Shown here in pieces: positions 52,101 through 63,413 of a DNA stretch of 64,000 bases (the stretch's first letter is position 1; each line of letters begins with the position of its first letter). Position numbers and translations under genes: made by a program. The notes beneath the pieces are model-generated. The model was not told the DNA's origin. It saw only the letters and a list, made by a program, of their open reading frames with translations, and made no database searches. This DNA comes from Antennarius striatus (Eukaryota; Chordata; Actinopteri; Lophiiformes; Antennariidae), in the NCBI RefSeq assembly GCF_040054535.1, contig NC_090787.1, positions 17,725,001 through 17,789,000 of the forward strand, given 5' to 3'.

Positions 52101-55100
52101 AATGTGCAAAATCAAGAGTCACGAGTTTGTCTTCTGTCACTGCATGGCTGCAGCACACAGCATGTAAGAGTGCTGACACCACAGGACAACCTGAGGTAAC
52201 TGCTTAAAGAAGAAGAAGTGGTTAGAGAAAGCAAAGTGAGTGGTTCATTACCCCTGGGTGTGTTGGAGCTGAGAGACGTGGATGATTTCTTGGACGGGGA
52301 CAACGCATGTACAGTGTTACGAGTGGAATGGGGAGTAATGCGGGAGTGAGACAGAGTCGTGTTTCTTCCAACTGGAGGAACTGATGAGCTGATGGGAGAA
52401 CGGGGAACTTCAGCAATGGATGATTTGGCAACATCAGTACCTAAAAAAGCAGAGAAGCAATTGAAAAGGTTAGAGGCTAATCCACTTCTTGGCTTTACCT
52501 AGATGAAATAAATGAGGGCACACTACTGTGAAAGAATGGGAAAGAGTGGACAATGAATGAAATGACAGGCATAAATGTTATCAAAAGCTAGCCAGGCTTT
52601 TCTCATTGTGAGAGGACAAGGGTGAGTTGGGTGTGCTTGGCTTGGCTGAAAATGGAAGCACACATGGAGGCAGGGATAATGAAGGAGTGGGTTGTGTAGG
52701 GTGGTAGGAGATGGAGATGGAGATGGGGAAGCAGTGACATTGTCCAATGGTTTGAAGTACAACTGAAAGCACTGTGTTCCATGTGACTTGATGAAAGCAC
52801 AGATGTTAATGGAACAAACTTGACATGGTTTTTACCATGATTGTAACTACCAGCCTTCTCTGTAGCCAAGGCAGGTCTTGGTACAGGCTTGCCCTCTTCT
52901 GGTGGACTAGGAGCTGTGTGAAAGAAAATTCACTATTTATCTAAAATATTAGATATTTTAATATATTTTTGACTTTTAAAGGGGGCATATTCTACCCTTA
53001 TTTACTAAAATCTAAGAATCCTTTTAAGTAAGTGCAGTTATGAATGATATGTATTTATTGTGACTGTGACAGGCATGAAAAGTAAACTTTTTACACATAG
53101 TTAAAAATTTTATCACCAATTTTAGAGAACATGTATATATTTACAAACACATATTTTTTAATCATGGATTTGAGGAGACAAAATATACCATCTATGGCAA
53201 GGAAGGATTTTTAGCAATGTGTCAAGGTTATCTGAAAATCTGTTATTTATTTATGATATTCTAACAATCGGATAATAAAATATCGATCTGATTTTAGAAC
53301 ATTTTCCTTTGAAACTAATGCAATACGGAAAAAATTTTAATCAATATGCCCCCTTTTAAAATGACATTTTAGACAAGGTCTTGAAAATTAATTGTGTGGA
53401 TTGCAGATGCCAAAAAGTAGGGTCTTTACCCGTAGGGACAGAATGCCTTGGGGTGACCTTGTTGGGATCATGGGTCCCGGCCTGAGCCCGAAATTGAATC
53501 CCAGGATGAGGATGTGGTTGGGGACTTGATGCTGGGTTTAACTTGGTAAGAAGTTCAAGTGACTGAGACTTTGGTGAAGGTCTTGGTGGGGGAATGGTTT
53601 GTGAATAAGTGACAGGGGGTGTCTGGGTCTTGAGTTGAATCTTTGGTTCAAATTGTTTCTGGTTCCTTGTATAAAATTTGGTCTTTTTCTTTTGTGACTT
53701 TGTCTGTTCTTTTGTTTGAGATCCTGGTTTGGGCTTGGATTTTCTCTTTGGTTGGGGTTTGAAAAAACGTGTCTTTTCTTTAGGTTTTGGTTGGGATTGC
53801 TGCTTTGTGCTTAGTTGATAACCTTGTTTGATTTTTAGCTGATGTTTGGTTTCGGTTGTTGGCTTAGTTGTAGCTTGAGTTTGGGGCTGGATGTGGACCA
53901 TTAGTGGAGTTAAGTTCTGAGGTATGTGCTGAAATGTTGGTTGAGGTGTTTGATGATCTGCCAATTGTGTGAGCTGAGGCGTTACTTGAAATTTCTTAGG
54001 GGTATGACTTTCTATAGTTGCTTGTGTATGCGGCTGGGCCTGGGGTTCGAGCTGATTTAATGGCTGATGCTGTGTTTCAGTCGGAAGCTGTGCTGTGGTT
54101 TGGGGTTGTGATTGAAGATGTGGCTTTGGTCTAGACTGCAAGAGAGGTTGGGTCTCATTTAAGGGCTGAAATATAGGATGAATGTAGGAAATGGGGTGGG
54201 TTGGTTGAGGATTAGGTTGTGCAGAAAGTATGTGAGACATGTGATGTGAGGTTAGTTGAGGTTGAGGTTGTGCAGGGGTTATATTCTGAGATGTCAATTG
54301 TGGTTGAGTTTGTGATTTTGAGGGTTGTATATCAGACCTGGGCTTGGATGTTGACTGTGGTCTAGGTTGGGGTTGGTATGGGGTCTGGAGAATGGGAGGA
54401 GATGTTTGTTGGGGTTGTGGCTGAGGTTCAATCTGCGGTCTGACTGTGGATGATGATTGTGGTTGGGTTTGAGGAAGAGTTTTCAATATGGCCTGAGGTG
54501 TTGGATGGGTTTGGGTCTGAAATATGCGAGATGTTTGCTGGTCTTGTGATTGAGTTTGGATCTGGGGTTTCAATGTTAACTGTGGTTGGACTTGAGGTTG
54601 AGTCTGGAATATGGCCGGAGATGTTGGCTTGGATTGGTGGAGTATGGGAGAAGATGTTTTTTGGGGTTGTGGTTGAGGTTGCATCTGAGGTTTGGGTTTG
54701 GATGTCAATTGTGATTGGGGTTTTGGTTGAGTCTGGAATATGGCCTGAGATGTAGGTTGGGCTTGGCGGAGTGTGGGAGAAGATGTTTGTAAAATTTGAG
54801 GTTGAGGTTGCATGTTGGTTGTGGGTTTAGATGTTAAATGTTGTTGGGGTTGTTGAGTTGGGATCACGGTTTGAGGTGTTGGCTGGAGTACAGGAGAGAA
54901 TGGTCGTTTGGTTTGTGGTTGAGGTTGCATCTGAGGTTTGGGTTTGGATGTTAATTGCATTTGGGGTTGTTGAGTGGTTGTGGGTGTGAATGTTAACTGG
55001 GCATGGAGTATGGTAGATGTTCCTTGTGTTTGAGGATGAACCTGAGGTTTGGGTATGGATGTTGATTGTGGTTGGGGCTGTGGTTGATCCTTGAATGTGG

Positions 55101-63413: not shown

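Follow-up and report, generated by a model that had tools for sequence, protein, structure and literature searches.

Within the 64,000-nucleotide stretch of Antennarius striatus DNA analysed here (the window), a gene of ABI3BP type contains one reading frame that stays open through almost ten kilobases of repetitive sequence. The question is whether this frame is a coding exon or a repeat that happens to lack stops. Repeats whose period is divisible by three tend to stay open of their own accord, and the coding strand here is rich in A and C, a composition that favours an open frame. Judged by its sequence, the giant exon is nevertheless more than an accident of repetition. We consider it probable that it is a teleost abi3bp coding exon, kept open by selection and grown by unequal exchange, whose product would act as a flexible spacer or tether. 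An earlier sequence-only reading, which saw here a linker exon of abi3bp expanded by duplication, is partly supported.

The gene and the borders of the giant exon

The features of the gene and its convergent neighbour are as follows.

53430..63413, minus strand: giant exon, 9,984 nt, phase 1-1, 3,327 full codons, rich in Gln, Pro, Thr, Ser and Lys
63414..63455, minus strand: possible 5' extension of 42 nt, open and in phase, used if the CCCAG acceptor is chosen
46335..52913, minus strand: seven short exons of 78, 189, 63, 63, 123, 90 and 210 nt, all phase 1-1
46544-46335, 46062-45957 and 45213-45134, minus strand: three FN3-bearing exons, FN3 beginning in the 210-nt exon
43161..44547, minus strand: final four exons, with TARSH_C in the last three (44390-43161) and the stop codon at the end
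32913..40650, plus strand: tfg, convergent neighbour, with PB1 exons in 32913-33931 and a Pro/Gln/Tyr-rich ORF near 40159-40650

The uninterrupted frame of 9,984 nt, phase 1 at both ends and joined in frame to the following exons, is as the sequence-only reading described it, and lies on the minus strand, which had been left unstated. The stop-to-stop frame around it extends over 53356..63492 (minus strand, 3,378 codons). From the giant exon to the stop codon at 43161 the frame is continuous via 13 exons (3,804 codons, the first incomplete), and the giant exon makes up 87.5% of the abi3bp coding sequence assembled within the window, close to the earlier figure of nearly 90%. Its edges are an acceptor CTCCTTTCTCAG at 63413 and a donor GTAAAG at 53430, each in phase 1. 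Both of the clean splice sites claimed before are present, but the acceptor is not unique, since a second one (CCCAG, phase 1) lies 42 nt upstream at 63455. By sequence the two appear equally possible: the AG-free stretch is 37 nt before the site at 63455 versus 23 nt before that at 63413, the pyrimidine counts are 13 and 15 of 17, respectively, and both candidates fall inside the range of the gene's 13 other acceptors (AG-free 19-82 nt, 10-15 pyrimidines of 17). No upstream exon partner was found in 64000-63500 by the criteria used.

Among the 13 donors of abi3bp one is GC, at the exon end 45134, and the others are GT; this GC donor (CAG/GCAAGG, exon 45213-45134, minus strand) is required by both the reading frame and the domain. 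Long GT/AC microsatellites occupy 51426-51776, in the intron before exon 51225-51163.

Assignment to an ABI3BP-type gene, as proposed earlier, is borne out by the 476-residue tail, in which fn3 (PF00041, 3.9e-9, residues 244-330) stands ahead of TARSH_C (PF21731, 1.7e-45, residues 350-473), and by the neighbourhood. The peptide of two plus-strand exons matches Protein TFG (PDB 9e7c, 1.2e-49), and tfg and abi3bp are arranged tail-to-tail, as are human TFG and ABI3BP. FNDC1, a paralogue of ABI3BP, has a C-terminal domain of the same type, and its central exon is large and of low complexity. Were the gene fndc1, a large linker exon would be ordinary, and the C-terminal domain alone would agree with this. 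The tail-to-tail tfg gene and the col8a1-like gene nearby speak for abi3bp instead, and we regard fndc1 as unlikely. A search for relatives of TARSH_C returned 1 match in viral_contigs and 26 in genome_contigs, none confirmed; these collections hold viruses and prokaryotes and are uninformative for fish.

Several other features of the window were noted. The col8a1-like gene is one ORF of 648 codons that encodes collagen repeats together with a C1q domain (24608-26554, plus strand), and a Jagunal-family ORF (29287-29793, plus strand) lies between it and tfg. Overlapping ORFs at 2908-3661 resemble, by eye, fragments of what is presumably a reverse-transcriptase element. Overlapping Pro/Ser-rich ORFs lie in a skewed stretch at the left end of the window (132-591, minus strand).

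Repeat architecture and the open frame

Most of the giant exon is a tandem array, which together with the unit identities agrees with the growth by internal tandem duplication suggested before.

54386..62885, minus strand: tandem array; units of 132 nt (44 residues) in two types that take turns, a pair spanning 264 nt
56680..58767, minus strand: higher-order block of four 522-nt repeats, 174 residues each
53430..54385, minus strand: 3' flank of the array, no tandem-repeat call, lysine-rich and open

A pattern search found 61 unit starts, from 63096 to 54708. Two types, A and B, each with a consensus of 44 residues, alternate to form an 88-residue pair, and towards its 3' end the array consists of degenerate units. 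Alignment A1 (56155-62652) contains 19 of the 26 A+B pairs, omitting the pair whose A unit has 32 residues and six that belong to the recent block at 58245-56680; in it 39 of the 88 columns are invariant. Units at residues 1549 to 2245 recur with a step of 174 residues, and the 522-nt block holds three A units identical in DNA; three identical copies at this step indicate that amplification there was recent. We can explain the array by enlargement of one linker exon through unequal exchange: a 44-residue unit would have given rise by divergence to an A/B pair of 88 residues, this pair would have been amplified, and 174-residue blocks would have spread later, the order being read from the unit identities. 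The short hydrophobic motifs VILQT and AIFQT (columns 34-37 and 78-81 of A1) are among the best conserved repeat positions and could possibly be a binding motif. When the repeat alignment was compared with viral_contigs, again uninformative for fish, 0 of 31 pattern matches were confirmed.

An array of this kind might also be a non-coding intronic minisatellite, whose open frame would follow from a period divisible by three and a sense strand poor in T and G. It is indeed a tandem array, its strands differ strongly in composition (plus-strand GC skew 0.66-0.70 over 54001-63000), and in a composition control of 30 first-order Markov sequences, with a mean of 66 stops per frame, the longest open run reached 482 codons. 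In the 9,984-nt block itself, however, the coding frame has 0 stops, while the other sense frames have 53 and 93 and the antisense frames 119, 143 and 165. The openness continues beyond the array in the same frame: stops by frame number 11, 5 and 0 in the 528-nt 5' flank and 12, 0 and 12 in the 956-nt 3' flank, the zero belonging in each case to the coding frame. The in-phase splice sites at the two ends of the block likewise speak against a minisatellite.

Differences among the units argue in the same direction. The statistics cover 54 of the 61 units found by pattern (26 A and 28 B), with seven left out (one of 30 residues and six degenerate or merged ones of 69-426 residues); they treat related copies as independent, and the units were delimited using the protein frame. 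With these limits, the 115 distinct single-base differences produce 0 stops versus 7.4 expected at random, and none of 5,000 simulations with the same base changes placed at random gave 0. Placed alone in the consensus codon, five of the B differences would be stops (6.5 expected); each of these is found only where the codon carries another change as well. For the 79 private differences, taken on their own unit background, there were 0 stops versus 5.3 expected (P=0.0032). A single step separates 1,324 of the 3,327 codons in the giant exon from a stop, and C-to-T changes that would turn a consensus codon into a stop are rarer than others, both by cell (3 of 631 versus 91 of 2,295) and by alignment column (3 of 24 versus 33 of 86 elsewhere, P=0.025). 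All 28 gaps between successive units of the same type are multiples of three, with sizes of 3, 6 and 36 nt only. The frame stop counts, the in-frame gaps and the stop-free differences lead us to reject a chance open frame, and a minisatellite that is merely open seems improbable to us.

The constraint on the amino acids themselves appears to be weak to moderate. Among A units synonymous differences are in excess (22 observed versus 14.1 expected, P=0.0065); among B units there is a non-significant trend (28 versus 22.5, P=0.07), and the shared B variants show no synonymous excess (ratio 1.03).

Comparison with synonymous-codon shuffles made no case for selection against cryptic donors inside the giant exon. 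Total GT falls slightly short of the shuffle mean (143 versus 155.6; P 0.004 of 500) and GTRAG is as expected (1 versus 1.3). The exon is also richer than the shuffles in GTRNG (13 versus 5.5) and AGGT (60 versus 16.1), a surplus that is probably a passenger of the repeat unit. A search of the plus strand for strict-form G4 motifs found none, and Rfam gave 0 matches at gathering thresholds.

Predicted product and use of the exon

The product of the giant exon has 3,327 residues and a computed mass of 371 kDa, with 24.1% Gln, 20% Pro, 13.8% Thr, 8.2% Ser and 7% Lys, a net charge of +195 and a pI of 10.5. It contains no RGD and lies below the Uversky boundary for folding. AlphaFold2, run on one 88-residue pair with 19 copies, gave no helix or strand and a pTM of 0.15; the mean pLDDT of 72.8 is above the usual for disorder and was obtained with near-identical copies as input. 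The product is thus predicted to be Gln/Pro-rich, basic and unstructured.

Such a composition is far from that of the short linker exons (Gln 24% versus 2.5%), as might be expected if the block were a single-exon gene of its own inside an abi3bp intron. The stop-to-stop ORF, however, has no Met before residue 100, and both ends of the block carry splice sites in the phase of the gene, which makes a nested gene highly improbable. Nor does the composition suit the mucin-like half of the earlier proposal of a mucin-like or spacer domain: Ser and Thr together reach 22%, N-glycosylation sequons number 3 over the 3,327 residues, and the dense Ser/Thr PTS repeats that would justify the label are absent. 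Mucin-type domains (VWD, SEA, C8) were not found in the tail or the giant frame (Pfam, E 0.01), the N-terminal part of the protein being outside the window. The spacer half of the proposal fits the composition better.

As an abi3bp exon, presumably included in the mRNA, the repeat block would encode a long flexible tether of ∼3,330 residues between the N-terminal part, outside the window, and the FN3-TARSH_C end, and the spacer would set the reach between the ends of ABI3BP. Lys clusters, which recur at intervals of about 44 residues, might bind acidic glycans of the matrix, and the abundant Gln and Lys side chains might allow cross-linking by transglutaminase. A polyproline II chain measures roughly 0.3 nm per residue, so that the product, if extended, would reach about a micrometre. 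That ABI3BP has become a matrix tether of micrometre scale in this fish lineage, with individuals differing in repeat number and tissues in use or skipping of the giant exon, is a more speculative extension that we find rather doubtful; its proposed variation between individuals is based on the young 522-nt blocks.

The phase symmetry of the exon had been put forward as a sign that skipping would give a compact isoform. The exon is indeed 1-1, but so are 10 of the 12 internal exons downstream of it, and on this ground we reject symmetry as evidence of skipping; skipping is possible, without special indication. It could still be that the block is a coding alternative exon of few tissues or stages, most transcripts skipping it to give a compact protein. 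Phase 1-1 permits this, although it is the rule in the gene and hence little informative. One report describes how a long exon, when included, gives rise to giant ankyrin isoforms (PMC5135030), and in another ABI3BP is tabulated as a potential tumour splicing marker in breast, with an average PSI change of -44% (PMC4446417). We give this restricted use a substantial chance, somewhat short of even; it is a variant of the coding exon that we prefer, and the probabilities of the two overlap.

Relation to known genes and repeat exons

If the exon is expressed, a conserved matrix protein would be several times longer than its mammalian counterpart, and the gene would offer a natural experiment on the length of disordered linker that a matrix adaptor tolerates. 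The giant exon could be less unusual than one window suggests if other teleosts share it. In a thin search of the open-access literature, no account of a giant exon in abi3bp came up, and nothing was found there on large repeat exons in teleosts or other fish; among the open-access matches listed for Pro/Gln repeats with transglutaminase, nothing was apt by title. One review calls the general functions of ABI3BP largely unknown (PMC6426741). In fish, abi3bp is reported to be regulated in salmon gill damage (PMC8996064) and appears in a list of age-related genes of sea bream (PMC11432111); gene models and read counts in such work may mislead if the exon is missed.

Compared with ABI3BP elsewhere (TARSH, target of Nesh-SH3), the gene described here has the same order of FN3 and TARSH_C, a convergent tfg as in human, and short phase-1 linker exons as in mammals. 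In mammals the linker is spread over many short exons and the whole protein has 1,000-odd residues; here, in contrast, the linker is dominated by one repeat exon of 10 kb. This exon is also longer than the central exon of FNDC1 and consists of Pro/Gln tandem repeats, and its neighbourhood is that of abi3bp. Mucins likewise have a large tandem-repeat exon in a secreted or surface protein, but their usual density of Ser and Thr is not matched, Gln being the commonest residue here. Involucrin and the salivary proline-rich proteins carry Gln- or Pro/Gln-rich tandem repeats in a single exon; they stand outside the FN3 matrix proteins, and the likeness is one of repeat type.

Giant ankyrins provide a parallel. 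The report on them describes a single in-frame exon of great length (8,103 bp on average, n=30) and biased composition; some of these exons contain arrays with units of 36-228 bp, and a spacer role has been postulated for the long exon in Drosophila (PMC5135030). The proteins are unrelated, and their long exons are Ser/Glu-rich, whereas the abi3bp exon is Gln/Pro-rich and basic; common to both is an in-frame exon of great length, which in a subset of the ankyrins also holds a repeat array. Giant exons of this kind are thus already known, while their occurrence in abi3bp at such a scale was not met in the literature searched, and among the literature examined the long exon of giant ankyrins is the closest documented analogue in mode.
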